Shown here: positions 1,985 to 38,054 of the stretch, one piece after another
How the letters are laid out: each line of letters starts with the position of its first letter
Position numbering within the stretch: the first letter of the stretch is position 1
The notes under the pieces: model-generated
Told to the model about the DNA's origin: nothing
What the model saw: the letters and a program-made list of their open reading frames with translations, nothing else
Database searches by the model: none
Translations under genes and position numbers: made by a program
Assembly (NCBI GenBank): GCA_902567945.1
Contig: CACFOC010000002.1
Location: forward strand, 1-64,000
Length of the DNA stretch: 64,000 nt
DNA from: an uncultured Pelagibacteraceae bacterium
GTDB lineage: Bacteria; Pseudomonadota; Alphaproteobacteria; Pelagibacterales; Pelagibacteraceae
Reading direction: 5' to 3'

Positions 1985-2592
1985 TTTTTATCAGGCCACC
2001 TACCCCTTGTAGCTGCATAATAACTTTTTAAAACTTCTGAAATTCCTTGAATAAGTAAAAATAATATACCAAACCATAAACAAGCTTTAATGGGCCACAT
2101 ATAAGGCATCCAAGCTGTATCCATTCCTCGTTCATTTCTCATAATTGATTCCTGAACAAATCCAGTTGTCATGTAAAAAAAGAATAAGAGACCTGGAAAA
2201 TAAAATAAAATATATAGTGTTGTATCTACTATACCTTGAGTTTTAACTTTAAAATTTCTGTATAAAAAATCTGCTCTTATATGAACTCCTTTTGATAAAG
2301 CGTATCCAGCGCCCAACATAAATAGTGCACCATATAAAAATCTACTCATATCATAAGCCCACATAGTTGGTGCTGTAAAAAGTTTTCTGGCTAAAACTTC
2401 ATAAACCATAGCGAGTATTAACGGTACTGTTATCCAACAAACAATGTTGCCGGTCCATTTACTAAACAAATCTATTTTTGTTATAAGTGATGCCATCCAT
2501 TTTGGCATGTCATCTGGCATTTTTATTGGTCCAGATCTTCTTTCTGCAATCATTTCATCTGATGTATCTATTTTTGTAGTTTCGTCACTCAT
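1981..2592 (-). CDS. dctQ: TRAP transporter small permease (DctQ family)
   Basis: 203 aa membrane protein overlapping dctM by 4 nt, between DctP and DctM homologues. Confidence 0.88.
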   Translation of the reverse strand: MSDETTKIDTSDEMIAERRSGPIKMPDDMPKWMASLITKIDLFSKWTGNIVCWITVPLILAMVYEVLARKLFTAPTMWAYDMSRFLYGALFMLGAGYALSKGVHIRADFLYRNFKVKTQGIVDTTLYILFYFPGLLFFFYMTTGFVQESIMRNERGMDTAWMPYMWPIKACLWFGILFLLIQGISEVLKSYYAATRGRWPDKK

Positions 2593-2603
2593 ATATATCC
2601 CTT

Positions 2604-2636
2604 AAAAAAATAAAGCGGACTATAAAGTCCGCTTTA
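2604..2636 (-). terminator. Intrinsic terminator/attenuator between dctP and dctQ
   Basis: taaagcggac-tataaa-gtccgcttta inverted repeat (2611-2636); on the minus strand the hairpin is followed directly by ATTTTTTT. Confidence 0.8.
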
Positions 2637-2666
2637 TTCTAAATATTTTTATAGTCTTTAAAACTA

Positions 2667-3761
2667 CTATTTTAATGTCGCTGCGTGAGCCATTCCTAGC
2701 TTAGCATTTGACATTTGAGCACCACTCCAGAATGGAACAGCAATATCAGCAAAGTCTTTTTGAGACTGCCATACTTTAGCAAAGAATTTATTCTTTGCGG
2801 CATTCGTCTCTAAACTTTTCTTAGCTGCAGCCATATATGCTGGGAAGTAGTCTGCAGGAGTATCATGTAAAATCACCCCATGTTTACCAGTAAGTTCTGC
2901 AAGAGCTTTACCGTTTTCGTATATTCTGTAGCTCATTGATTTACTCAAAGATGCATTAGAAGCAACTTCAAAAGCTTTCTTTTGAAGTGGTGTTAAGCTT
3001 TTATATACATCACCGTTTATGTAAACGTCAGCATTTACCACAACTTGGTGTAAACCTTGTAAGTAGTAATGTTTAAGAACTTTTTGGAAACCAAATGTCA
3101 TGTCTGGTTTTGGACAACACCATTCAGCTGCATCAATAGTACCTGCTTCAAGAGCCGGAAGAATATCTCCTCCACCCATTGCAACAGAAGCTACACCAAT
3201 ATCTTTATAAGTTTGTCCTGGAATTCCCGGAGGAGTTCTGAACTTATATTTTCTAAAGTCATCCATGCTATTAATTGGCTCTTTGAACCAACCAAGAGCT
3301 TCTGGACCAACTGGTTGAAGCATAAACCCTTTAATATTTCTTTTCATTTCTTTCCAAAGTTGGTCGTAAAGTTCTTTACCACCACCGTACTGGAACCATG
3401 ACAAGAAAGCGATATTATCAATTCCTACACCTGCTCCTGCTACTGGAGATCCAAACAACATAGCTGCTGGGTGTTCACCTGACCAATAATGTGTCCAAGC
3501 AAAACCACAATCGATCAGCCCTTTATCAACTGCATCTAATGTTTCTTTTACTCCAACTACAGTACCCGCAGGAAGAATTTCAAATTTAATTTCGCCATTT
3601 GTAAGAGCGGTAATGTCATTACCCCAATCTTTTAACATTTTAACTTCATCAGCTTTTGCGCTGATAACAGTTTGGCATTTTAATGTTTTTGCAGCATTCG
3701 CCGATACCGTAAAACCGATAAACAACGCTACTCCTAAAAACAAAGATATGATTTTTTTCAT
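2667..3761 (-). CDS. dctP: TRAP transporter substrate-binding protein (DctP family)
   Basis: 364 aa with signal peptide MKKIISLFLGVALFIGFTVSANA; DctP-like core. Confidence 0.9.
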   Translation of the reverse strand: MKKIISLFLGVALFIGFTVSANAAKTLKCQTVISAKADEVKMLKDWGNDITALTNGEIKFEILPAGTVVGVKETLDAVDKGLIDCGFAWTHYWSGEHPAAMLFGSPVAGAGVGIDNIAFLSWFQYGGGKELYDQLWKEMKRNIKGFMLQPVGPEALGWFKEPINSMDDFRKYKFRTPPGIPGQTYKDIGVASVAMGGGDILPALEAGTIDAAEWCCPKPDMTFGFQKVLKHYYLQGLHQVVVNADVYINGDVYKSLTPLQKKAFEVASNASLSKSMSYRIYENGKALAELTGKHGVILHDTPADYFPAYMAAAKKSLETNAAKNKFFAKVWQSQKDFADIAVPFWSGAQMSNAKLGMAHAATLK

Positions 3762-8171: not shown

Positions 8172-9950
8172 TTAATTAATTTTTTGAGGACGCATATCTT
8201 TCAAATTGATTCCAGCAATTTTAACAGGTTTTTTCATCGCATCTCTCCTAAAAGGTTCACCAAGTTCCTGGTTAAGGATTACTTCTATAAAAGTTGTGAT
8301 TCCATTTTTTTGCTCTTCACATGATTTCTTTAAAGCAAGCGTTAACTCATCTTGTGTTTTAACTTGAACTCCTTTCAAACCACAACCTTCTGCAACTTTT
8401 GCAAAACTTAAATCAGGATCTAGCTCTGTACCAATAAAATTATCGTCAAACCATAGTATAGAATTTCTTTTTTCTGCTCCCCATTGATAATTTCTAAATA
8501 TTATCATCGTAACTGATGGCCATTCTTTACGATTACATGAACTCATTTCACTCATACTGATTCCAAAAGCCCCATCACCAGCAAAACCGACAACAGGGGT
8601 GTCTGGGCACCCAATTTTTGCACCAAGGATTGCTGGAAATCCATAACCACATGGCCCAAAAAGACCTGGAGCTAAATATTTTCTTCCTTTTTCAAAAGTT
8701 GGATATGCATTTCCAATAGCACAATTATTTCCAATATCACTTGAAATGATTGCATTTGATGGTAGTCCAGCTTGTATTGCTCTCCATGCCATACGTGGTG
8801 ACATTCTATCCTTGTCTCTTTTTCTAGCATCTTTATTCCATGTTGTCCCCGGATCATCCTCTTCATGATCTAAACTTGTAAGAGTTTGAAGCCATGCTGA
8901 TTTTGTTTGGTGAATTAATGCTTTACGTTTTTCTCTATCTGTATCTCCTGCATTTTTTGATAATTTCTCTAACAGTTGTTGTGCTACTAACTTTGCGTCA
9001 CCACAAATTCCAACTGTAACTTTTTTAGTCAACCCAATTCTATCTGAATTCATATCGACTTGAATAATGCTTGCTTTTTTTGGCCAGTAATCAATTCCAT
9101 AACCCGGTAAAGTTGAAAAAGGATTTAATCTTGTTCCTAAAGCTAAAACTACGTCTGCCTTTGAGATTAACTGCATGGCAGCTTTCGAACCATTATATCC
9201 CAAAGGTCCTACAGCTAGAGGATGACTTCCAGGAAAACTATCATTATGTTGATACCCAGAACAAACTGGTGAATCTAAACGTTCTGCCAATTTTTTACAA
9301 TCTTCTATAGCGTTACCAATAACTACGCCAGCTCCTGATAATATAACTGGAAATTTTGCACTTGATAGTAACTTAGCTGCGTGATTAATCGCACTTACAC
9401 CGCCTGCTTGTCTTTCTAATCTAACAATTGGAGGTAGATCAATATCAATTACCTGTGTCCAATAATCTCTTGGAATATTAATTTGTGCTGGAGCAGATCC
9501 TCTTATTGCTTTTTCTATTACGCGATTTAAAACTTCTGCCATACGTGATGGGTCACGTACTTCCTCTTGATAGCAAACCATATCTTTAAAAAGATTCATT
9601 TGTTCAACTTCTTGAAAACCACCTTGGCCCATTGTTTTGTTTGCCGCTTGTGGTGTTACTAAAAGCATAGGAGTATGGTTCCAATAAGCTGTTTTAATTG
9701 GTGTTACTAAACCTGTAATTCCTGGCCCATTTTGTGCAATGCACATTGCAATTTTACCTGTAGCACGAGTGTAACCGTCAGCTATTAAACCTCCATTTGA
9801 TTCATGCGCAACATCCCAAAAAGTTATACCAGCCTTGGGAAAAAGATCTGAGATAGGCATAAAAGCAGAACCTATAATTCCAAAAGAATGTTCTATTCCG
9901 TGCATTTGAAGAACTTTTACAAAAGCTTCTTCTGTTGTCATTTTAGTCAT
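8172..9950 (-). CDS. xsc: Sulfoacetaldehyde acetyltransferase (TPP enzyme)
   Basis: MTKMTTEEAFVKVLQMHGIEHSFGIIGSAFMPISDLFPKAGITFWDVAHESNGGLIADGYTRATG; Xsc-type core; start at 9950, the longer ORF upstream extension is not supported. Confidence 0.92.
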   Translation of the reverse strand: MTKMTTEEAFVKVLQMHGIEHSFGIIGSAFMPISDLFPKAGITFWDVAHESNGGLIADGYTRATGKIAMCIAQNGPGITGLVTPIKTAYWNHTPMLLVTPQAANKTMGQGGFQEVEQMNLFKDMVCYQEEVRDPSRMAEVLNRVIEKAIRGSAPAQINIPRDYWTQVIDIDLPPIVRLERQAGGVSAINHAAKLLSSAKFPVILSGAGVVIGNAIEDCKKLAERLDSPVCSGYQHNDSFPGSHPLAVGPLGYNGSKAAMQLISKADVVLALGTRLNPFSTLPGYGIDYWPKKASIIQVDMNSDRIGLTKKVTVGICGDAKLVAQQLLEKLSKNAGDTDREKRKALIHQTKSAWLQTLTSLDHEEDDPGTTWNKDARKRDKDRMSPRMAWRAIQAGLPSNAIISSDIGNNCAIGNAYPTFEKGRKYLAPGLFGPCGYGFPAILGAKIGCPDTPVVGFAGDGAFGISMSEMSSCNRKEWPSVTMIIFRNYQWGAEKRNSILWFDDNFIGTELDPDLSFAKVAEGCGLKGVQVKTQDELTLALKKSCEEQKNGITTFIEVILNQELGEPFRRDAMKKPVKIAGINLKDMRPQKIN

Positions 9951-10010
9951 GATAAAATCCCTAAAAAATACTTTAAATATATCAATTTTAAGGCTATATC
10001 CAGTAGGAAA

Positions 10011-10298
10011 ATGTCTCAAACAGATTTGATAATTCACAACGAAAAAGACAATGTAGCTGTTGTCGTTATTGAGAAAACATCCAAAAATCAGGAATGTACA
10101 GGATGGATTATGGAAAACGACAAAACAATTAACATAAAATCTATTAATGAAATTCCTCTTGGTCACAAAATTGCTCTTCAAGATCTTAAAGAAGGAGACA
10201 CAATTTTAAAATATGGACACGATATAGGAAAAGTTGTTAAATCAATAAAAAAAGGTGCACATGTTCATGTTCACAATGTAAAAACTAAGAAGTGGTAA
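10011..10298 (+). CDS. suyA: UxaA N-terminal (SAF-domain) family small subunit, SuyA-like sulfolactate sulfo-lyase small subunit
   Basis: [25 protein letters not shown]..., [23 protein letters not shown]; directly followed by UxaA C-terminal protein and divergent from xsc. Confidence 0.65.
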
Positions 10299-10302
10299 TA
10301 TT

Positions 10303-11469
10303 ATGGAAATTCCAAAAAGTTTTTTAGGTTATAAAAGAGAAAACGGAAGAGCGGGAACAAGAAACCATGTGATTATACTTCCGGTAGATGATATTTCAAA
10401 TGCATGCGCCGAAGCGGTAGCAAATAATATTAAAGGTACAATAGCCTTGCCACACTCTTATGGAAGACTTCAATTTGGAGCAGATTTAGAATTACATTTT
10501 AGAACAATGATTGGAACTGGAAGTAACCCAAATGTAGCAGCAGTAATAGTTATAGGGATAGAACCCAAATGGACAAAACGAATTGTAGATGGAATAGCAA
10601 AAACAGGAAAGCCGGTTGAAGGTTTTCACATCGAGCGGACTGGAGATATTGGTACTGTGATGAAAGCATCAAAAAAAGCACAAGAGTTTGTAATGTGGGC
10701 TTCTGAAAAACAAAGAGAAGAATGTCCTTTAAGTGATTTATGGATATCAGTTAAATGCGGAGAATCTGATACGACGTCAGGTCTTGCTTCAAATCCAACA
10801 GTTGGGAACCTTATGGATAAATTAGAACCGCTTGGAGTTCATTTATGCTTTGGAGAAACTTCAGAACTAACAGGAGCTGAAACTGTTTGTGCTAAGAGAG
10901 GAGCTACACCTGAGGCCTCAAAAAAATTTATGAAAACTTGGAGTGCTTATAATAATTTTATTCTTAAAGAAGCTACTGACGATCTCTCAGAAAGCCAACC
11001 GACTGCCGGAAATATTGCTGGCGGTTTAACAACTATTGAAGAAAAAGCTTTTGGTAACTTTCAAAAAATTGGCTCTTGTAAATTTATTGATGTGTTGGAA
11101 CCTGCGGAAACACCAACCAAAGGTAAAGGTTTATATTTTATGGATACTTCTTCTGCAGCAGCTGAGTGTGTAACTCTTCAAGCAGCAGGGGGTTTTAATA
11201 TTCATTTATTTCCAACGGGGCAAGGTAATATAGTAGGTAATCCAATTGAACCAGTTATAAAATTAACAGCTAACCCATTGACAGTAAAATCTATGGGAGA
11301 ACATATAGACTGTGATGTATCAAAAATTCTTTCTAGAGAAATGAATCTATCTGAAGCTGGTGATGAATTAATAAAAATAACTATCAAAGTAGCCAATGGC
11401 AGGTTAACTTGTGCAGAGGCTTTGGGTCATAAAGAGTTTGTAATGACTAAACTCTACAGAAGTGCTTAA
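10303..11469 (+). CDS. suyB: UxaA C-terminal family large subunit, SuyB-like sulfolactate sulfo-lyase large subunit
   Basis: [69 protein letters not shown]; gene pairing and xsc neighbourhood. Confidence 0.65.
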
Positions 11470-11861
11470 TGTCAAATTCAGCAGAACGATGTCTTTTTTG
11501 CAATAAAGCAAAACAAAAGATTATTGATTCAAATAAATTAATTTTTGTAGTTAGAGACAGTTACCCAGTTACAAAATACCATACTTTAATTATTCCTCAC
11601 AGGCATGTTTCTGATTTTTTTGATCTTAGCCATGATGAACTTTCTGATTTAAATAAAATATTAAAAAAACAAAGACAATCATTATTAAATATAGATAAAG
11701 AAATTACTGGATTTAATGTTGGTGTTAACGCAGGTCCTGACGCTGGACAATCAATTATGCATTGTCATATCCATTTAATTCCAAGAAGAAAAGGTGATAC
11801 AAAAAATCCTAGAGGAGGAGTTAGAGGAGTGATACCATCGAAACAAAAATACAACAAATGA
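11469..11861 (+). CDS. HIT-family protein (histidine triad hydrolase)
   Basis: CLFCNKAKQKIIDSN...; QSIMHCHIHLIPRRKGD histidine triad. Confidence 0.92.
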   Translation: MSNSAERCLFCNKAKQKIIDSNKLIFVVRDSYPVTKYHTLIIPHRHVSDFFDLSHDELSDLNKILKKQRQSLLNIDKEITGFNVGVNAGPDAGQSIMHCHIHLIPRRKGDTKNPRGGVRGVIPSKQKYNK

Positions 11862-12775
11862 ATACAGATTATTTTTCAAAAGTAAGAATATTAGATGGCG
11901 GCATGGGTCAACAAATGCTTGCAAAGGGCTTACAAGCTAGGGGAAGTTTATGGTCTGCTACTGCATTAATAGAAAAAAAATATCACCAACTAGTTATTGA
12001 TACACATTTAGATTTTATTAAATCTGGAGCTGAAGTAATTGTTACAACTAATTTTTCTGCCAGAAGAACTAGAATGATTCAAAATAAAGTTGAGAAGTAT
12101 TTCAATTATGCTAATGAAATGGCTGGAGAACTTGCCCTAAGAGCTAAGGAGATTTCTAAAAAAAATGTTTTAATTGGAGGAAGTTTGCCAGCTCAAAATG
12201 ATACATATGTTCTAGATCCAAGAGATAAAAAGATAATAGAAAAAGGGTTTTTCGATCAAGCTATCTTGCTTAAACCTTTTGTTGATTTTTTTTATTTAGA
12301 CGTTATGTCTGGCAGCAAGGAATGTGATATAGCATTAAATGTTACAAAAAAATTAAATTTACCTGTTTTAGTTGGGTTACATATTAAGAAGAATGGAAAA
12401 CTTCCTTCTGGGGAAAGTATAGTTGAAGTATTTAAAAAGTGTAAAGGAGAAAATTGGTTAGGACTTGTAGCTGCATGTGTGTCTCCCGAAATTATAGAAA
12501 AGGCAGTTGAAGAAATTAAACAACTAAAAATACCTTTTGGCTTTAAAGTAAATCTTTGGAAAACAGAAGAACCTATACCTGTACATAAATTTGCTTCTCC
12601 TATAGATAAAATTGGAACTAATCCTGTTGAAAGTATGGGCACAAGAAACGAATATACTGACGTAAGGTTTTTAGAATTCTCAAAAAATATGATGGATCAT
12701 GGAGCAACAATTCTAGGAGGTTGTTGTGAAACAAAACCATCTCATATAAAAAAAATTTCTATACTTAAAAATTAA
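11858..12775 (+). CDS. Homocysteine S-methyltransferase family protein
   Basis: ILDGGMGQQMLAKG; AEVIVTTNF; ILGGCCETKPSHI (zinc-binding GGCC). Confidence 0.88.
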   Translation: MNTDYFSKVRILDGGMGQQMLAKGLQARGSLWSATALIEKKYHQLVIDTHLDFIKSGAEVIVTTNFSARRTRMIQNKVEKYFNYANEMAGELALRAKEISKKNVLIGGSLPAQNDTYVLDPRDKKIIEKGFFDQAILLKPFVDFFYLDVMSGSKECDIALNVTKKLNLPVLVGLHIKKNGKLPSGESIVEVFKKCKGENWLGLVAACVSPEIIEKAVEEIKQLKIPFGFKVNLWKTEEPIPVHKFASPIDKIGTNPVESMGTRNEYTDVRFLEFSKNMMDHGATILGGCCETKPSHIKKISILKN

Positions 12776-12803
12776 TTAATAAAGGTTTTTTTTATTTGAA
12801 ATT

Positions 12804-13901
12804 TTATATTGCTTTTGGTGGTGGTGGTGCTTTTGGTGCATTAATTCGTTTACTTATTTGTCTTCTGACATAAGAAACAAAAATACCAGCTGAAAGAGCT
12901 ATAAAAATCGAAGAAACTCCATAAACGATGGGGTATTGATTAGAGAGATTATAGATTGTAATACCATAGTCACTGATTTCTGCAATTTTATCTGTTGGTA
13001 CTTTTAAACTGACTTCACCATTTTTAAAAAAAGTTTCATATGCCATTAAAATTCCCACTGAAAGCATAAGTAAAGCAAGTAAAGCCTTTAGTTGTGAACC
13101 ATCAAGTCGCTGTCCAATTTTTTGACCTGAATGGACACCAATTATAGATCCGGTGATCAGTATTAAAACGAGCAATAAATCAATTGTGTGATAAGTAAAA
13201 GCATGCGAAATGGTAACAAATCCTGTTATAAATATTGTAACAAATAAAGATGTTCCTGGAACAAGTTTAGTTGGCATGCCAATTAAATAAATCATGGCTG
13301 GTACCATTAAAAAAGCTCCTCCTACACCCATAATTGCAGAAATAAATCCCACTATAACACCCAACAAAAGAGGAACTAAGGCACTTTCATAAACTTTGGA
13401 TGTTTTAAATCTCATTCTAAAAGGAAGTCCATGTATCCAGTAGTGAGTATGTAATTTTTTCTTAACTGCTATTTTTTTTTTAAACATGTTAATTTCAACT
13501 AAACCATCTCTAAGCATAAAACTTCCAATGATAGCAAGCACATACATATAAGCTAAAGCAATTACAATATCTATTTTGCCGATACCTTTAAAATAACTAA
13601 AAGTTAAAATTCCAATGAAAGTTCCCAAAAGTCCACCAATAACAATTAGCCAACCTATTTTAACATCAAGAGTTTTTTTAAACCAATGAGTTAAAGCTCC
13701 TGAAGATGATGAAGCTAAAATATTATTTGCTTCATTTGCTACTGCATAAATTGGAGGTATGCCCATAAAAATTAGTAGTGGAGTCATAAGAAAACCTCCT
13801 CCTACACCAAACATCCCTGAGAGAAAGCCGATAACAAAACTTACAAAAAGTATTAATATTACATTTATTTGAACTTCGGCTATGGGTAAGAAAACTTCCA
13901 T
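12804..13901 (-). CDS. TauE/SafE-family sulfite/anion exporter
   Basis: 365 aa membrane protein; FGVGGGFLMTPLLIFMGIPP and IMGVGGAFLMVPAMIYLIGMP duplicated TauE motifs. Confidence 0.85.
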   Translation of the reverse strand: MEVFLPIAEVQINVILILFVSFVIGFLSGMFGVGGGFLMTPLLIFMGIPPIYAVANEANNILASSSSGALTHWFKKTLDVKIGWLIVIGGLLGTFIGILTFSYFKGIGKIDIVIALAYMYVLAIIGSFMLRDGLVEINMFKKKIAVKKKLHTHYWIHGLPFRMRFKTSKVYESALVPLLLGVIVGFISAIMGVGGAFLMVPAMIYLIGMPTKLVPGTSLFVTIFITGFVTISHAFTYHTIDLLLVLILITGSIIGVHSGQKIGQRLDGSQLKALLALLMLSVGILMAYETFFKNGEVSLKVPTDKIAEISDYGITIYNLSNQYPIVYGVSSIFIALSAGIFVSYVRRQISKRINAPKAPPPPKAI

Positions 13902-13957
13902 AAAATATTTATTTAATAAATATTCTTGAAATATAAAAATGTCAATAAATAGATAAC

Positions 13958-14308
13958 CTAATAAATGGTTGCACCAAAGACCTTGACCTCGCCATCTTCG
14001 ACTCCAAGCACTAATCTACCTAGAAAATCACCATTAACAGAATTACTTGTCTGTTTATAAAGAACTGTAATGTGAGAATTTCTTCTTAAACAGCCTAGAA
14101 CTTCTTTTTTGTCTGATAAACTAGTTAATAACTTGTTATTTGCCCACTGTTTTCCTAACTCTACTTCATTAGCGCCAAATAGCATTTGAGAAGAGAAATC
14201 TCTTGTAAAACCTCCATAATCTTTTTGGTTAGAAGTTTTTATTAAATTATCCCAAATTGGATTAGCAATTTCTATAATTTCTTCGTCAGTTTTCTTGAGA
14301 AGATCCAT
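13958..14308 (-). CDS. Conserved-looking small protein of unknown function in the apr gene block
   Basis: 116 aa ORF, same strand and 17 nt downstream of aprA; no motif recognised. Confidence 0.7.
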   Translation of the reverse strand: MDLLKKTDEEIIEIANPIWDNLIKTSNQKDYGGFTRDFSSQMLFGANEVELGKQWANNKLLTSLSDKKEVLGCLRRNSHITVLYKQTSNSVNGDFLGRLVLGVEDGEVKVFGATIY

Positions 14309-14325
14309 TTGTTTTATCTAATGTT

Positions 14326-16185
14326 TTAAGAAGCTTTTTTTTTCTCTTCATCGCCAATGATATGATAAACAGGCATCTTTTCCATAGTAAACTTGCCAGT
14401 TTTAGGATCACGGCGTGAAACGGTTAAACAGTGCCAATTTTTATCATCTAATTTCATATGGTCACCTCGATAATAATATCCAGGCCAACGCGTTTCTTCA
14501 CGAAACAAAGTATGCTCTGTAACGCACTGTGAAGTTATTGCTCGGTGTTTTAATTCCCAGGCACGCATAAGCTGATGATAATCTTCGGCACCAATATGTT
14601 CTAAGTCTTCTTGAAACCACTGTAACAATTCCAAACCTTTTTTAAGCAAATTTCCATTCGTCATATAATTAACTGAGATACCTCCAACATACTCATCCAT
14701 AATTTTTTGAAGACGTTGAAGACCTTGAATTGGAGAAAAATAACTTGGTGAAACTGTACCTCCAGTAATCTCATTTCTGCCAACAGTATAATTTTCTAAT
14801 GGTTTATATATAATTTTTTTAAAATCTTCACATTGTTTTTCGCTAACCTTAATATTTTTTGCTTTTTGATCTTCTATATATTTAACAGCAGCTTTTGCAG
14901 CTAAACGACCTTCTGTGAAAGAACCTGATGAAAATTTGTGAGCGCTTCCTCCAACTGTATCCCCTGCCCCAAAAAGGCCTTGGACAGTCATCATCCTATT
15001 ATATCCCCAAAAATATTCTGGTGGAGATATATCTTCTGGGCCGCTTACCCAGGCTCCTGAACAAGTTGCGTGAGAACCCATAACATATGGTTCTGAAGTT
15101 GTTAGTTCGGGATTTGTATATTTAGGATCTATATTTTGAGATGCCCAAACAACTGCTTGCCCTACTGTCATACCAAGGAAATTTTCCCAACCAACTGTTT
15201 CTAAATGCGGGTCTTGAAAAGCTTCTTTAGTCACCATTTGAATTGGTCCACCACCAGCCATAACCTCTTGGACAAAGGCATGATTACGTAAACATGTTGG
15301 TGTTGGATGATGATCAATATATTCTCCAACTAATTTTTTTGTTTGATCGTACCATTTTTTTTCATAGTTTTCGCCATTAGCATTTTGTGTGTAAGTTTTT
15401 AAATGTAAAAAATAAGCTCCGACTGGCCCGTATCCATCTTTAAATCTACATAAAACAATTCGGTTTTCCATTTGAGTCATTTTAGCTCCAGCCGCGATTG
15501 GTAACGCATAAGCTGAACCGTTGCTCCAAGGAGCATACCAAGTTCTTCCCATACCTTCACCAACTGCCCTAGGTTTAAAAATATGTGACGCTCCACCTGC
15601 TGCAACAATTACAGTTTTAGCACGAAACACATAATAGTCCCCTGTGCGCATATTAAAACCTACTGCACCACCAACTCTATTTTCATCATTTTCATCCATA
15701 AGTAAGTGGGTGATCATTATTCGATTATAAATTTTATCTGCAGATTTTTTAGCTGCTTCAGCTACTATTGGTTTGTAACTTTCGCCATGAATCATTATTT
15801 GCCATTTACCTTCTCTTTGATAGCGTCCAGTTTTTGGATTCTTCATCATGGGTAAACCCCATTCATCAAACATGTGAACTGTTGAATCTACATGGCGAGC
15901 CATATCGTAACCAAGATCTTCTCTTACTAATCCCATTAAATCGTTACGTGCGTAACGCACATGATCTTCGGGTTGATTTTCATTCCACTGCATTCCCATA
16001 TAGCAGTTAATTGCATAAAGCCCTTGCGCAACCGCGCCGCTTCTATCGATGTTTGCTTTTTCAACACAAATAATTTTTAAATCTCTTCCCCAGTGTCTTG
16101 CTTCAAATGCAGCACCAGTGCCAGCCATTCCTCCACCAACAACAAGTATGTCACATTCTTCGTGATAAGTTTTATGTTTCGCCAT
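14326..16185 (-). CDS. aprA: Adenylylsulfate reductase subunit alpha
   Basis: ECDILVVGGGMAGTGAAFEARHWGRDLKIICVEKANIDRSGAVAQGLYAINCYMGMQWNENQPEDHVRYARNDLMGL; AprA-type FAD domain. Confidence 0.95.
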   Translation of the reverse strand: MAKHKTYHEECDILVVGGGMAGTGAAFEARHWGRDLKIICVEKANIDRSGAVAQGLYAINCYMGMQWNENQPEDHVRYARNDLMGLVREDLGYDMARHVDSTVHMFDEWGLPMMKNPKTGRYQREGKWQIMIHGESYKPIVAEAAKKSADKIYNRIMITHLLMDENDENRVGGAVGFNMRTGDYYVFRAKTVIVAAGGASHIFKPRAVGEGMGRTWYAPWSNGSAYALPIAAGAKMTQMENRIVLCRFKDGYGPVGAYFLHLKTYTQNANGENYEKKWYDQTKKLVGEYIDHHPTPTCLRNHAFVQEVMAGGGPIQMVTKEAFQDPHLETVGWENFLGMTVGQAVVWASQNIDPKYTNPELTTSEPYVMGSHATCSGAWVSGPEDISPPEYFWGYNRMMTVQGLFGAGDTVGGSAHKFSSGSFTEGRLAAKAAVKYIEDQKAKNIKVSEKQCEDFKKIIYKPLENYTVGRNEITGGTVSPSYFSPIQGLQRLQKIMDEYVGGISVNYMTNGNLLKKGLELLQWFQEDLEHIGAEDYHQLMRAWELKHRAITSQCVTEHTLFREETRWPGYYYRGDHMKLDDKNWHCLTVSRRDPKTGKFTMEKMPVYHIIGDEEKKKAS

Positions 16186-16655
16186 TAATAATAAACTCCT
16201 TTTTTAAATGAATTTTTATCAATTGTTGGTAATTCTTTTTTAGTATTTAAACCCTCAGGTTCAGAATAAAGTGTTTGAGACTTAATTTCTCCTTGATTTG
16301 GTTTGTCGACTTCAGCAAGTTTTGGAATAAATTTACCCCATGGCTTTGTTGTTATTGGAGAGACAAAATCTTTTTCTGTCCCATTTCTGAATTTTATTTT
16401 CCAAGAAATTGTTCCCTTTTCTTCTTCTCGACGAACTCTGACGCTATGCCCCATAGGAGCAAAATCCGCATACCCACGGACATCAATTGCATGATTTGGA
16501 CATGCCTTTACGCATGAATAACATTCCCAACAAAAATTAGGCTCTATATTTTTTGCACGTCTAATAGTTTCATCGATATGCATAATATCAGATGGACAGA
16601 TATCAACGCAGTGTCCACAACCATCACAACGTGTCATATATACAAAAGTTGACAT
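16185..16655 (-). CDS. aprB: Adenylylsulfate reductase subunit beta (2x4Fe-4S)
   Basis: CDGCGHCVDICPSDIMHI ... CWECYSCVKACPNHAIDVRGYADFAPMG. Confidence 0.95.
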   Translation of the reverse strand: MSTFVYMTRCDGCGHCVDICPSDIMHIDETIRRAKNIEPNFCWECYSCVKACPNHAIDVRGYADFAPMGHSVRVRREEEKGTISWKIKFRNGTEKDFVSPITTKPWGKFIPKLAEVDKPNQGEIKSQTLYSEPEGLNTKKELPTIDKNSFKKGVYY

Positions 16656-16694: not shown

Positions 16695-17537
16695 TTAATA
16701 GTGTTTTGGTGTCTCACGACTGATGCCTAGACCAAATTGTTTAGAAGCCTTTGCTGGTGGTGGTAAATTATCTCTTGAACCATCAGCTTCTGCTAAATTT
16801 TTTTGAAGTGCTGCCCCTGGTTTATAAAACATATGTGCAAACTTAGACCAATACACCCCACCAAATAAAACAAGATTAGATATAATAAATAAAATTAAAA
16901 ATACTTTATCGTCCCATCTGTCATTTAAGTTTAACGATTGTAAAAATGACCAGACTATACCAAAAAAAGAAGATGCTAGGAGTGCTAGTACAAATAAATC
17001 TGCTTTAATAATTCTATACCAAGGCTGAGCTTCTGAATAAACATCTACTCTTAAAAAAAACCAAAACCAAGAGCCGCCAAGAATAGTCATTATGGCACCA
17101 ACATGCCAGATGATTGGCCATACTGAAGGAGTATTTGAAGTTGGTGAAGCATAACAAAAAATCATTACAACTGAACCAGTCCAAAATAAAACAGTTCCAT
17201 ACATACCAAGAAGATGGGCTGCTCTCCTTTTCCCAGCACCCAGCTCTGATGTAGTTGCTATGTCACTCGCTATTGTTTTTAAAATTACTGAAGTTTTTTC
17301 ACCTGTAGTAAGTATTTTTTTTGCTGATTTTTTAGCTTTCTTCGCGTTTTCAAAAAAATATTTTACATTTTTTTTATGAATTATATCTACAAAAGTTCCT
17401 AAAACTACTAACAATCCCATAACAACGACAAAACTTTGCATTGCAATAACTGGTATAGTTTCTGAAAGTATTGAAAATGGATTAATGGTAATCAAAATAA
17501 CTCCCTTGTCATTCAAAAAATTTAATAGATGGCTCAA
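16695..17537 (-). CDS. aprM: AprM-like membrane anchor protein of the APS reductase locus
   Basis: 280 aa multi-TM protein directly upstream of aprBA; annotated TTG start overlaps a terminator hairpin, so the true start is probably further downstream. Confidence 0.7.
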   Translation of the reverse strand: MSHLLNFLNDKGVILITINPFSILSETIPVIAMQSFVVVMGLLVVLGTFVDIIHKKNVKYFFENAKKAKKSAKKILTTGEKTSVILKTIASDIATTSELGAGKRRAAHLLGMYGTVLFWTGSVVMIFCYASPTSNTPSVWPIIWHVGAIMTILGGSWFWFFLRVDVYSEAQPWYRIIKADLFVLALLASSFFGIVWSFLQSLNLNDRWDDKVFLILFIISNLVLFGGVYWSKFAHMFYKPGAALQKNLAEADGSRDNLPPPAKASKQFGLGISRETPKHY

Positions 17538-17583: not shown

Positions 17584-18255
17584 TTAAGCAGCCACCTGCA
17601 TTGGAATATTATGTTTAACTGCCATACCAGTTAAAAAATTCCAAAGATATTTAGCTGTCATTAAAGCTGACTTTTCTGCTTTAACTTGCTCAACTTCATT
17701 TAAACCATCAAGCAATTTTTCACAAGCTACTCTGTGGTATTCATCAGCAGCCTTGTGAACTTCGAAAAATTCCAATCCTTCTTTTGATGAAACTCCATAG
17801 TGGTTTTTTAAACCTCTAATTTTTGTTACTGCTATTTCTGGTATTTGTCTTTCATAAGTGTAAAGAGAAGCAAGACCTTCAGCATAGCTTGCTCTACTAT
17901 GCTTAAAAAAATTATCAATCATATCATCAGTAAACTTTTCCTTTGTAACTGAATCTATCTTTAATTTTTCTGCCCCCACAGCTGATGCAAAATTTTTCCA
18001 AAGTTTTGGGTGATCTGCATCTTGTTTTTCCTCATCTTGAAGATTTTCAAGCAAAATTTTTCTTTTTTCTATATCTTCGCATAAAGAATGCGTAGCGCTG
18101 ATATAACGAGGAAATGCTTTTACATGCTGATAGTATTGTTCTGCATAATCCTTAATTATCTCCCTTGTCAGCTTTCCTTCGTTCCAAGCTTTATAAAAAG
18201 GATGTTTAAGTAAGTGGTATTTATCTAGTTTTTCTTTTAATTGATTTGAAAACAT
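17584..18255 (-). CDS. CADD/PqqC-TenA superfamily haem-oxygenase-like dimetal protein, candidate 4-aminobenzoate synthase
   Basis: LLKHPFYKAWNEGKLTREIIKDYAEQYYQHVKAFPRYISATHSLCEDIEKRKILLENLQDEE closely resembles the chlamydial CADD (CT610) sequence as recalled. Confidence 0.8.
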   Translation of the reverse strand: MFSNQLKEKLDKYHLLKHPFYKAWNEGKLTREIIKDYAEQYYQHVKAFPRYISATHSLCEDIEKRKILLENLQDEEKQDADHPKLWKNFASAVGAEKLKIDSVTKEKFTDDMIDNFFKHSRASYAEGLASLYTYERQIPEIAVTKIRGLKNHYGVSSKEGLEFFEVHKAADEYHRVACEKLLDGLNEVEQVKAEKSALMTAKYLWNFLTGMAVKHNIPMQVAA

Positions 18256-18347: not shown

Positions 18348-19577
18348 TTAAGTTGTAGCTAGCCTTGGTAATGGCTTCTCATCTATAGGTAGATGTATTA
18401 CAGCAGCGAAAAAGGAAAGTCCTACAGATAGATACCAAGCATAATCATAGGAGCCATATTGATCATAAAAATATCCACCTAGGTACGCTCCTAAAAATGA
18501 TCCTATTTGGTGACTAAAAAATACTATGCCGTAAAGAGTTGCTAAATATTTTGTTCCAAAAACTTGTGAAATAATCCCATTTGTTGGTGGAATAGTTGCC
18601 AGCCAAAGAAATCCATAAAGCACTCCAAAACCTATTGCTACGTAAGTTGATGTAGGAAGAATTAGAAACAAAATTAGCACAATTCCACGAGCAAAATATA
18701 AAATACTCAATAATATTTTTTTACTATACTTTCCTGATAAATAACCGAATGACAATGTTCCAAAAACATTAAAAAGACCTATTAAAGATAAAATTGCAGC
18801 AGCTGTCCATATTTCAAAGCCACGTTCTTGGATGTACATAGGTATGTGTGCTGAAACTAAAGTTATATTAAAACCACATACAAAAAAACCAAGTATTAAA
18901 AGTATAAAACCTTTATGATTAAATGCCTCTTTTAGTGCTTCTGGAAGTGTTTGATTATCTACTTTAATACCGTCGTTTATATTTTTTTCTTTCTTAACTT
19001 CACGCAGAAAGATTGCGGCGATCATTCCGAATAAAACAAAGTACAAATATGTGTTTAGTGTTTTTTCCCAGCCAAACGTAGATAAAGCATATTTTGTGTA
19101 TATAGGAGAGAAAAAATAACCAATTGAAGCCATAGAGACTACAATTCCTATAGCCATTCCTCTAGTTTTGTTTGGAAAATGTTTTCCAACAGCACCGATC
19201 TGAACACTTATTGCTGTGCCGCCTAAACCAATTCCAATTAATAAACCAAGGTTAATTTGAAAAAATATTCCTGTATTTGGTCCTGAATAAAGTAAATAAA
19301 TTCCTAATGCTACAAAACAGGCTGCTAATATTGTAACTTTTCCACTTCCAATTTTATCTGCCAATGCACCAAAAATTGGTGCAAACATTCCCCACATTAG
19401 CATTTGCAATCCTATTGCCAAACCAAACTCTGTAATTGTGCACTGTAAATCTTTTACAAAAAAATCCGTAAACAACCCAAAGACCATACGGAGTCCCATG
19501 AATATCGCAACTATAAAACAAGCAGAAATAAGTGTAATGAAAGCTACATTACTTGGAAAGAATTTTTCTTTTGTCAT
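18348..19577 (-). CDS. MFS transporter
   Basis: 409 aa, 12 TM; GMFAPIFGALADKIGSGKV motif A. Confidence 0.88.
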   Translation of the reverse strand: MTKEKFFPSNVAFITLISACFIVAIFMGLRMVFGLFTDFFVKDLQCTITEFGLAIGLQMLMWGMFAPIFGALADKIGSGKVTILAACFVALGIYLLYSGPNTGIFFQINLGLLIGIGLGGTAISVQIGAVGKHFPNKTRGMAIGIVVSMASIGYFFSPIYTKYALSTFGWEKTLNTYLYFVLFGMIAAIFLREVKKEKNINDGIKVDNQTLPEALKEAFNHKGFILLILGFFVCGFNITLVSAHIPMYIQERGFEIWTAAAILSLIGLFNVFGTLSFGYLSGKYSKKILLSILYFARGIVLILFLILPTSTYVAIGFGVLYGFLWLATIPPTNGIISQVFGTKYLATLYGIVFFSHQIGSFLGAYLGGYFYDQYGSYDYAWYLSVGLSFFAAVIHLPIDEKPLPRLATT

Positions 19578-20752
19578 TTAATAAATTTTAAAGATCTTCT
19601 TAAATCATTGATTAAATCTTTTGGATCTTCAAGACCAATGTGTAAACGAACTAAATGTTCATTTTTTTCTAATTTAAAATAACGTCTTATACCTAATTCA
19701 ACTGGATCAGTATAAACAGCAAGGCTTTCAAAACCTCCCCAGCTATATCCAATCCCAAAAAGTTCTAATGAATTTACAAATTTGTAAACTGATTTCTTGT
19801 TTTTGCTTTTTATTATTATACTCAATAAACCTGATGCTCCAGAATAATACTTTTTTAATAATTTAAATTCTCTTGACGAAGGTTTGTAAGGATATAATAT
19901 TTTAGATATCTTTCTTTGAGTTTTTAAAAAAGAGATAATTTTTTTTGCATTTTCTTGATGTTTCTCTAATCTTATATCTAAAGTTCTTAAACCTCTGATA
20001 ATTAAATATGCATCATCAGACGATAGTCTATAACCCGAAACATGATTATACCACCATACTTTTTTATAAACATTTTTATTAACTGCTACCGTGCCTGCCA
20101 TTACATCAGAGTGACCAGAGTAATATTTTGTTGCTGAAGTAATTGATATATCAAAACCTAGTTTTAATGGTTTAAAAAAGTATGCTGTTGCCCAAGTATT
20201 ATCAATTGCTGTAAATATATTTTTGCTTTTTGCAAGAGAAACTATTTTTCCAAGCTCGTTCATTTCAAAAGTGTTGCTCCCAGGATTTTCAACATAAATA
20301 AGCTTAGTTTTTTTTGTAATTTTATTTTTTAAATCGTTAAAGTTATTTGGATTATACCAGATAGCTTTTATCTTAAATTCTTTTAGTAAATCATCTGTAA
20401 GTTTTTGTGTTGGTCGGTACACACCATCTGAAATTACTATCTCGTCCCCTGGTCTACATATACTCATTATTGATAATGCAACTGCAGCAAAACCTGTTGG
20501 TGTTAAAAAAACTTGATAAGCTTCTTCCAACCCTCTAAGCATTTTTTGCAATTGAACTGACGTTTGTGTACCTTGTCTTCCATAGTCCCAGTGTTCTACA
20601 TCTTTTCCCTTAGCTATATCTTTTTGATGTTTTCTTAACTCTTCCATTGTTTTAAACAGAATTGTAGATGCACGAACTACTGGAGGGTTAACAGATCTAG
20701 AAGTGTAATCTTTTGCAGCAGTTTTTAAATATGTTTTTATTGATTTTTCCAT
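19574..20752 (-). CDS. metC: Cystathionine beta-lyase / trans-sulfuration PLP enzyme
   Basis: RSVNPPVVRASTILFKTMEEL; HWDYGRQGTQTSVQLQ; SATKYYSGHSDVMAGTV (PLP lysine); start MEKSIKTYLK at 20752. Confidence 0.88.
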   Translation of the reverse strand: MEKSIKTYLKTAAKDYTSRSVNPPVVRASTILFKTMEELRKHQKDIAKGKDVEHWDYGRQGTQTSVQLQKMLRGLEEAYQVFLTPTGFAAVALSIMSICRPGDEIVISDGVYRPTQKLTDDLLKEFKIKAIWYNPNNFNDLKNKITKKTKLIYVENPGSNTFEMNELGKIVSLAKSKNIFTAIDNTWATAYFFKPLKLGFDISITSATKYYSGHSDVMAGTVAVNKNVYKKVWWYNHVSGYRLSSDDAYLIIRGLRTLDIRLEKHQENAKKIISFLKTQRKISKILYPYKPSSREFKLLKKYYSGASGLLSIIIKSKNKKSVYKFVNSLELFGIGYSWGGFESLAVYTDPVELGIRRYFKLEKNEHLVRLHIGLEDPKDLINDLRRSLKFIK

Positions 20753-20834
20753 AAAATATTTGATAACAAAATAAGACAATGCTATATCCTCCAAATAAGG
20801 TCAATTATATAATTAATATGGAGGAAAATTAAAC

Positions 20835-21676: not shown

Positions 21677-21840
21677 AAAAGTTTTGGTTCGTCGTTGTAG
21701 GCGCTACCGCCGAACCCGCCACTCCACTATGTTGAGCGCTACTCTGCGGAGTTTTCTGCCCGATAAGCTTGAACCTCTCGGTCTTTCCTTATCTGGCCAG
21801 TTAAGAGTTGCCTCTTAAGTCATTATCATTTAACCATTTT
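21632..21840 (-). ncRNA. Structured non-coding RNA candidate of unknown family, ending in a UUCG-loop intrinsic terminator
   Basis: GC-rich relative to flanks, no ORF; minus-strand hairpins TTAAGAG-GCAA-CTCTTAA, GATAAG..GACC-GAGA-GGTT..CTTATC, ACTCC..GGAGT, GGTTCGGCGgtagCGCC..CGAACC, then GTTCATACACC-TTCG-GGTGTGTGAAC followed by tcaggTTTTCTTTTTTTT. Confidence 0.7.
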
Positions 21841-37436: not shown

Positions 37437-38054
37437 CTATTCTTTATTAATATATCTCAAGTAACGATTTTGAAAACTTAAATCATCCTTGAAAGCTCCA
37501 AGAAAATAATTAGTCACTGTAGTCGTATCTTCTTTTCTAACGCCTCTATTTGTCATACACTGGTGAGAGGCATCTATGGTAACAGCGACACCTCTTGGTT
37601 GTAAAACGTCCATTATGGTTCTCGCAATTTGCATTGTTAAACGTTCTTGTGTTTGCAATCTTTTTGAGAAAACTTCTACTACTCTCGCTAATTTACTTAA
37701 GCCTACAACCTTATTTGAAGGGATATAAGCAACATGTGCCACGCCAGTAATAGGAGCCATATGATGTTCACAATGACTTTGAATGCTTATATTTTTTTCG
37801 ATAACCATGTCGTCGTAACCTTCCACTTCGGTAAAAGTTTTTGATAAAAATTGGGCTGGATTTTGGGTGTAGCCTCTAAAATATTCTCTGTATGCCTTAA
37901 TAACTCTTTTTGGCGTTGATTTTAAACCTTCTCGTTCTGGATTTTCTCCTATCCATTCAATAATTGTTTTAACTGCCTCTTCTGCTTTTTCATCAGAGAC
38001 TTGTTGTGTCTTTTTTTGCAATTGTTCTGTATCTTTGTCTTTAACTAGTTTCAT
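37437..38054 (-). CDS. folE: GTP cyclohydrolase I
   Basis: NPEREGLKSTPKRVIKAYREYFRGY; SHCEHHMAPITGVAHVAYIPSNKVVGLSKLARVV. Confidence 0.96.
   Translation of the reverse strand: MKLVKDKDTEQLQKKTQQVSDEKAEEAVKTIIEWIGENPEREGLKSTPKRVIKAYREYFRGYTQNPAQFLSKTFTEVEGYDDMVIEKNISIQSHCEHHMAPITGVAHVAYIPSNKVVGLSKLARVVEVFSKRLQTQERLTMQIARTIMDVLQPRGVAVTIDASHQCMTNRGVRKEDTTTVTNYFLGAFKDDLSFQNRYLRYINKE

Follow-up and report, generated by a model that had tools for sequence, protein, structure and literature searches.

Self-sacrificing synthesis of 4-aminobenzoate (pABA), a building block of folate, has been established biochemically for two proteins, CADD (CT610) of Chlamydia trachomatis and NePabS (NE1434) of Nitrosomonas europaea. 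In these proteins a tyrosine of the enzyme itself, Tyr27 in CADD and Tyr25 in NePabS, is excised from the polypeptide to become pABA, and a lysine, Lys152 and Lys159 respectively, acts as the amine donor (PMC11965152). The dimetal site consists of three histidines and three carboxylates (PMC11965152). These residue roles were derived from mutagenesis and proteomics of both enzymes; Tyr41 is essential in NePabS, where Tyr45 and Trp99 matter as well (PMC11965152). Metal preference is set in NePabS by two residues near the metals: the Tyr/Tyr pair of CADD goes with Mn/Fe and the Phe/Phe pair of NePabS with Fe/Fe, and the NePabS F148Y variant is able to use both (PMC11965152). The NePabS gene is reported to complement Escherichia coli lacking pabABC (PMC11965152). 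Enzymes of the CADD type have been listed for Chlamydia, Wolbachia, Rickettsia, Chloroflexi, Sphingomonas and Nitrosomonas, a list that does not include SAR11 (PMC11965152).

In the present work, we describe a member of this already known family in a stretch of 64,000 nucleotides, called the window hereafter, that forms positions 1 to 64,000 of contig CACFOC010000002.1 (assembly GCA_902567945.1). The source assembly (0.87 Mb, 72% complete) belongs to the SAR11 bacteria (Pelagibacteraceae), which rank among Earth's most numerous cells. We consider it very likely that the gene encodes a self-sacrificing CADD-family pABA synthase, an activity that we infer by homology, and that the organism obtains its newly made pABA for folate from this enzyme alone.

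A CADD family gene in SAR11

The gene occupies positions 17584..18255 on the minus strand and encodes 223 amino acids from an ATG start. A preliminary description had proposed it as a candidate single-gene pABA synthase; the open reading frame is real and the peptide quoted there matches letter for letter. At 297.9 bits, the protein lies above the curated threshold (200 bits) of the NCBIfam CADD model TIGR04305, which carries only the name 'putative folate metabolism protein'. It falls below the equivalog cut-offs of the models for PqqC (TIGR02111, 54.8 bits, cut-off 240), TenA thiaminase II (TIGR04306, 15.7 bits, cut-off 130) and BesC (NF042919, 32.4 bits, cut-off 500), and has superfamily-level Pfam matches to TENA_THI-4 (79 bits) and Haem_oxygenas_2 (64 bits). 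A phmmer search of PDB sequences returned as nearest entries, at 146-148 bits, CADD (1rcw and 8va9, E ~2e-42) and 9pj4 (E 8e-42), with PqqC at 34 bits (E 2e-7). Entry 9pj4 is a 4-aminobenzoate synthase in whose sequence the NePabS peptides and residue numbering were found.

The AlphaFold2 model of the protein, computed from an alignment of 17 SAR11 sequences, has a mean pLDDT of 88.7 and a pTM of 0.87. Foldseek against the PDB gave 1rcw and 8va9 as best structural matches (TM 0.94, rmsd 1.4 Å), followed by PqqC (TM 0.76, rmsd 5.3 Å); the predicted fold is thus that of CADD.

The named relatives of the gene come from Pelagibacteraceae single cells and metagenome bins, such as SCGC AAA288-N07 (86% identity) and HIMB058 (78%). 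In the tree, SAR11 CADDs form a single clade (support 96/97) whose branches track genera. A CADD from another alphaproteobacterial family, f28, encoded by a 1.3-Mb genome (L187) and 58% identical to the window protein, is the sister of the SAR11 clade (97/94) and may reflect a transfer or a donor lineage. At phylum level the family is scarce, with 7 of 398 genomes above the cut-off, two of them Pelagibacteraceae. Apparent second CADDs in G007, G074 and G161, at 23-38 bits on the CADD model, were rejected as distant relatives; the one in G007, a CADD genome (L228, G007:C1:106500-108000), is a heme-oxygenase-like protein of 225 amino acids that reaches 38 bits and matches no NCBIfam family. Placement with PqqC or TenA enzymes, named beforehand as an outcome that would speak against a pABA synthase, was not observed: phylogeny and family models both lead to CADD.

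Catalytic residues and metal site

Residue positions were compared in 101 SAR11 sequences: the window protein, 20 loci found by genome searches and 80 that come from GTDB species, with a few genomes represented twice. None of 13 catalytic and metal positions varies among them. The N-terminal half had been described as aligning nearly gap-free with CADD; the alignment contains a single one-residue gap. The tyrosine of the FYKAW motif, likewise pointed out in the preliminary description, is Y21 (codon 18193..18195, this and all following codons on the minus strand); it aligns with CADD Tyr27 and NePabS Tyr25 and is the predicted sacrificial residue in view of the role established for its counterparts (PMC11965152). 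Within its F-Y-x-x-W context it is also invariant in six outgroup members. The predicted amino-group donor, which the earlier account did not mention, is K145 (17821..17823), equivalent to CADD K152 and NePabS K159 (PMC11965152). Counterparts of the other NePabS residues of known importance are present too: Y37 (18145..18147) for the essential Y41, and the conserved Y41 (18133-18135) and W86 for Y45 and W99 (PMC11965152).

For the dimetal site, glutamates and histidines had been noticed beforehand and are indeed there, although that list was partial. The full set aligned with the CADD ligands, which we take to be E81, H88, E142, H174, D178 and H181, comprises E75 (18031..18033, the equivalent of E81), H82 (18010-18012), E135 (17851-17853), H167 (17755-17757), D171 (17743-17745) and H174 (17734-17736). 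These six ligands, together with Y21, K145, Y37, Y41 and W86, are all found in the window protein and are invariant across the 101 copies. All 23 examined relatives that score under the family cut-off are without both the Tyr27 and the Lys152 equivalents, although alignment columns are less certain for the more distant of them; the five nearest retain the metal ligands. The tyrosine and the lysine, hallmarks of the self-sacrificing reaction, are therefore specific to the family.

The two positions governing metal preference are occupied by F163 (17767..17769; CADD Y170, NePabS F177) and its partner Y134 (17854-17856; CADD Y141, NePabS F148), each in 101 of 101 SAR11 copies. Since this Tyr/Phe combination recalls the NePabS F148Y variant, a tolerant centre is predicted, and the SAR11 metal site is expected to work with Fe/Fe or Mn/Fe.

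By analogy with the characterised enzymes, the reduced dimetal centre (E75, H82, E135, H167, D171 and H174) would activate O2, and a radical would travel to Y21 via the aromatic residues Y134, Y41 and W86. The side chain of Y21 would then be released by a cut between C-alpha and C-beta, leaving a glycine behind. Both carboxylate oxygens of pABA would come from O2 and the amine from the side chain of K145, which would end as aminoadipate. In this scheme the yield could not exceed one pABA per protein chain. Our estimate is that the few hundred to a thousand folates needed per division could be covered by an ordinary protein copy number in a small, slow SAR11 cell. Taken together, the SAR11 gene very probably yields pABA by destroying one of its own tyrosines.

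Folate pathway genes across the family

The preliminary description had suggested a search of the complete genome for pabA, pabB and pabC. No canonical set was found. The window's own genome contains two chorismate-binding fragments, both TrpE and both at contig ends; neither PabB nor folP was found in this 72% complete assembly, and for this reason the argument for pabABC absence is carried by the relatives. In a set of 43 genomes from the order, those with CADD never possess more than one chorismate-binding enzyme, which has the length of TrpE. The genomes of the commonest and best-sampled genus, designated g3, as well as those of the outgroup family f2 encode a second one with an adjacent Aminotran_4 gene. 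TrpE is the sole chorismate-binding enzyme in the essentially complete single-contig CADD genomes G007, G010, G017 and G030, and it occurs in every tested CADD genome that is at least 90% complete. No PabB and no recognisable PabC were found in CADD genomes, which retain TrpE and folP. Where checked, their only Aminotran_4 protein besides IlvE is a D-amino-acid transaminase; in particular, the extra Aminotran_4 of the CADD genera g5, g8 and g10 was rejected as PabC, the three copies checked scoring above the D-amino-acid transaminase cut-off and below that of PabC. The pABA-using enzyme FolP is encoded by 40 of the 43 genomes and is missing from none of the 28 that reach 90% completeness. On the pterin branch, folE (GTP cyclohydrolase I) lies in the window as had been stated, at 37437..38054 on the minus strand (TIGR00063, 213 bits, cut-off 181.6). 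Neither of the two observations that could have spoken against a single-gene pABA synthase, a pab gene set and a PqqC or TenA placement, was made, and the pab search favours that reading.

The distribution of the two routes was followed in 143 genomes of the family, namely 142 at 90% completeness or more and the window's own. CADD exceeds its cut-off in 26 of them and a g3-type PabB is present in 102; 15 have neither and none has both. Under independence an overlap of 18.5 genomes would be expected, corresponding to a nominal P of 3e-18 that cannot be taken at face value in related genomes: since the state is mostly uniform within a genus, the 0/143 overlap represents few independent switches only. 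The complete lack of overlap nevertheless holds. CADD occurs in genera g1, g2, g4, g5, g6, g8 and g10. The best explanation is that most Pelagibacteraceae genera depend on the CADD route and genus g3 on pabB-pabA-pabC instead.

A shared chromosomal slot

In the window, the minus-strand order is a cystathionine-lyase-like gene, an MFS gene, CADD, aprM, aprB and aprA. The first encodes a PLP enzyme of the cystathionine beta-lyase family (19574..20794, minus strand; TIGR01324) and the second an MFS transporter (18348..19577, minus strand; Pfam MFS_1), which constitutes the left flank. The right flank is a membrane protein gene adjoining aprBA (16695..17537, minus strand) with a weak resemblance to QmoC in NCBIfam, for which aprM is used as a convenience name. 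It is followed by aprB and aprA, encoding adenylyl-sulfate reductase (14326..16655, minus strand; TIGR02060 and TIGR02061). This order is kept in g1, g4 and g6, with small additional genes in some genomes. Among 80 named CADD loci, an MFS gene lies upstream on the same strand in 70 and aprM downstream in 54; pab genes were found at none of the 80. An additional gene lies between MFS and CADD at L092 (8471-9247), where it encodes an APS-kinase/AAA-like protein of 258 amino acids, and at several g1 loci (e.g. L104 and L108), where about 900 bp separate MFS and CADD.

The g3 genomes display the order lyase-like gene, MFS, pabB, pabA, pabC, HIT, aprM, aprB and aprA, intact in G005, G020, G153 and G169, and in a genome of g9 (G011) pabBAC likewise abuts aprM. 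The lyase-like gene and the MFS gene on one side and aprM-aprB-aprA on the other thus surround either CADD or pabBAC, and each therefore takes the place of the other in the slot. We regard this exchange as the strongest genomic evidence that CADD and pabBAC meet one and the same requirement.

The CADD gene of g5, g8 and g10 has another location, with rseP and an HU gene ahead of it and serC-serA-serB behind it; folE is about 5.5 kb away, and apr is absent from this neighbourhood. A link between CADD and sulfur metabolism, considered because of the apr and xsc neighbours, is unsupported given these apr-free loci and the pabBAC content of the g3 slot. The window does contain a sulfonate/sulfite cluster at 8172-16655, with genes for sulfoacetaldehyde acetyltransferase (xsc), galactarate-dehydratase-like and homocysteine-methyltransferase-like proteins, a TauE exporter, aprA and aprB. 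An IMES-2 motif, a marine non-coding RNA, is present at 21684-21825 on the minus strand (RF02035, 149 bits, gathering threshold 54.7), at a distance of some 0.9 kb from the lyase-like gene.

Direction of the exchange

The simplest account, which is moderately supported, has CADD as the ancestral route of the family and pabBAC gained at the same spot by g3 and g9. The TrpE tree places g3 with the CADD genera g1 and g6 (96/93), inside a family where CADD is widespread; some branches of this tree are long and its root rests on one f2 TrpE. Could the order have been the reverse, with pabBAC ancestral at the apr locus and replaced by CADD several times in the course of genome reduction? Replacing about 2.5 kb of pabBAC by a single gene of 672 bp would fit streamlining, and the outgroup family f2 does carry a canonical pabB-pabC. 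However, the g3 PabB and its f2 counterpart share only some 32-37% identity, no more than the g3 protein shares with TrpE, and the g3 PabB is for that reason not the inherited copy. Its motif is PIAGT and that of f2 PabB is PIKGT, which is also carried by E. coli PabB. Because of this motif and of scores under the curated PabB cut-offs, the assignment of the g3 protein leans on its pabB-pabA-pabC operon. Outside the family, g3-type PabB is rare, occurring in 3 of 290 genomes of the class, small ones, again as pabB-pabA-pabC. A pabC fragment found in the slot of G002, a genome placed in the window's genus g1, agrees with ancestral pabBAC, but the presence of CADD in seven genera with a genus-congruent tree and the nested position of g3 do not, and we hold the reverse order to be unlikely.

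We lean, on balance, towards a Pelagibacteraceae ancestor relying on a single-turnover, O2-dependent pABA synthase, from which the dominant-genus lineage would have regained a catalytic chorismate route via pabBAC exactly at the CADD site. Were CADD indeed ancestral, a suicide enzyme would be an affordable, long-term and reversible solution for cells that are very small and slow, and its Tyr/Phe site would tolerate both Fe/Fe and Mn/Fe.

Genomes with neither route

Thirteen of the 15 genomes with neither CADD nor PabB belong to g3, the others being G002 and a g5 genome, G016. Six of the g3 genomes contain the apr locus, and their assemblies break at the slot, in or beside pabC (G119, G127, G141 and G157) or in or just before HIT (G164 and G166). 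These breaks explain the missing genes, and auxotrophy was rejected for the six; in six or seven others the apr locus is absent from the assembly. The contig of G002 begins inside its pabC fragment. Seven genomes without detected CADD or PabB have a contig end at the same slot (L213-L216 and L218-L220), suggesting that the region is strain-variable and breaks assemblies. In a complete single-contig g3 genome (L217, G061:C1:446500-453500), pabA and pabC are intact and pabB is frameshifted into two parts (1891-2190 and 2250-3056), by either a sequencing error or decay of the pathway.

The case of G016 differs. In this 96% complete genome, rseP is followed without interruption by an HU-like gene and serC (L236, G016:C17:115000-121000), CADD is missing and PabB was not found. 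As CADD is gone from an intact contig, the lineage may need outside pABA. G016 is a real exception among the family genomes and a candidate natural pABA auxotroph.

This genome bears on whether the protein might be a PqqC-, TenA- or BesC-like oxidase of some other substrate, pABA being imported from seawater. Uptake of free pABA is conceivable in plankton, G016 seems to live without either route, and the TENA_THI-4 and Haem_oxygenas_2 matches attest to a common superfamily. Such a function is nevertheless highly improbable: the PqqC, BesC and TenA scores are far under their cut-offs, the invariant CADD-specific Tyr and Lys are missing in sub-cut-off relatives, and CADD and PabB exclude each other family-wide around one common slot. 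Another folate step, a regulatory or a moonlighting role, with TrpE and TrpG making pABA promiscuously, is hardly credible in spite of the noncommittal name of TIGR04305 and the universal TrpE of the tested CADD genomes at least 90% complete, since g3 has TrpE too and yet keeps a dedicated pabBAC, and since characterised homologues make pABA without another substrate, the N. europaea gene replacing pabABC in E. coli (PMC11965152).

Implications of a CADD route

Should several SAR11 genera indeed make pABA with a protein that acts a single time, the strangest known way of making a vitamin precursor would at the same time be abundant. What streamlined cells pay in protein for their folate would then become a calculable and testable number. 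The exchange in the slot offers a natural experiment in which related cells with the same neighbouring genes rely on one suicide enzyme or on a three-gene catalytic pathway. The lack of pabABC in a SAR11 genome is no evidence of pABA or folate auxotrophy.

Comparison with known systems

In the open literature searched, no report was found that treats CADD or pabB in SAR11 or Pelagibacter. What is new here is the spread of CADD through SAR11 and its in situ exchange with pabBAC, neither of which was found in that literature.

NePabS, which likewise has a free-living host, is 44% identical over a partial sequence, is matched in sequence by PDB 9pj4 and has in common with the SAR11 protein the sacrificial Tyr, the Lys, Tyr41, Tyr45, Trp99 and the metal ligands. 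It differs in having Phe at both metal-preference sites (F148 and F177), where SAR11 has Tyr first and Phe second, in an insertion of about nine residues after the third helix, and in its gene context: the NePabS gene lies beside glyA, and the window gene is flanked by an MFS gene on one side and the apr operon on the other.

CADD of C. trachomatis (CT610; 1rcw and 8va9) is 37% identical, superposes with the TM and rmsd values given above and agrees in the sacrificial Tyr, the Lys and the metal ligands. It has been reported in host-cell death signalling, a role without a place in a free-living planktonic cell. Its two metal-preference sites are both Tyr, with a preference for Mn/Fe (PMC11965152), in contrast to the Tyr/Phe pair of SAR11, and CT610 is clustered with the folABKP genes (PMC1971073), unlike the SAR11 gene.

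PqqC, TenA, BesC and UndA share the heme-oxygenase-like fold and, for several of them, the dimetal ligands. The Tyr27 and Lys152 equivalents are absent in the relatives tested, identity in the fold search is 14-19%, and on the PqqC, TenA and BesC models the window protein scores far below cut-off.

The canonical pabB-pabA-pabC of g3 presumably delivers the same product from the same slot, and alternates with CADD across the family. It nevertheless consists of unrelated proteins and depends on chorismate, with three genes (~2.5 kb) encoding a catalytic pathway in place of a single-turnover enzyme.
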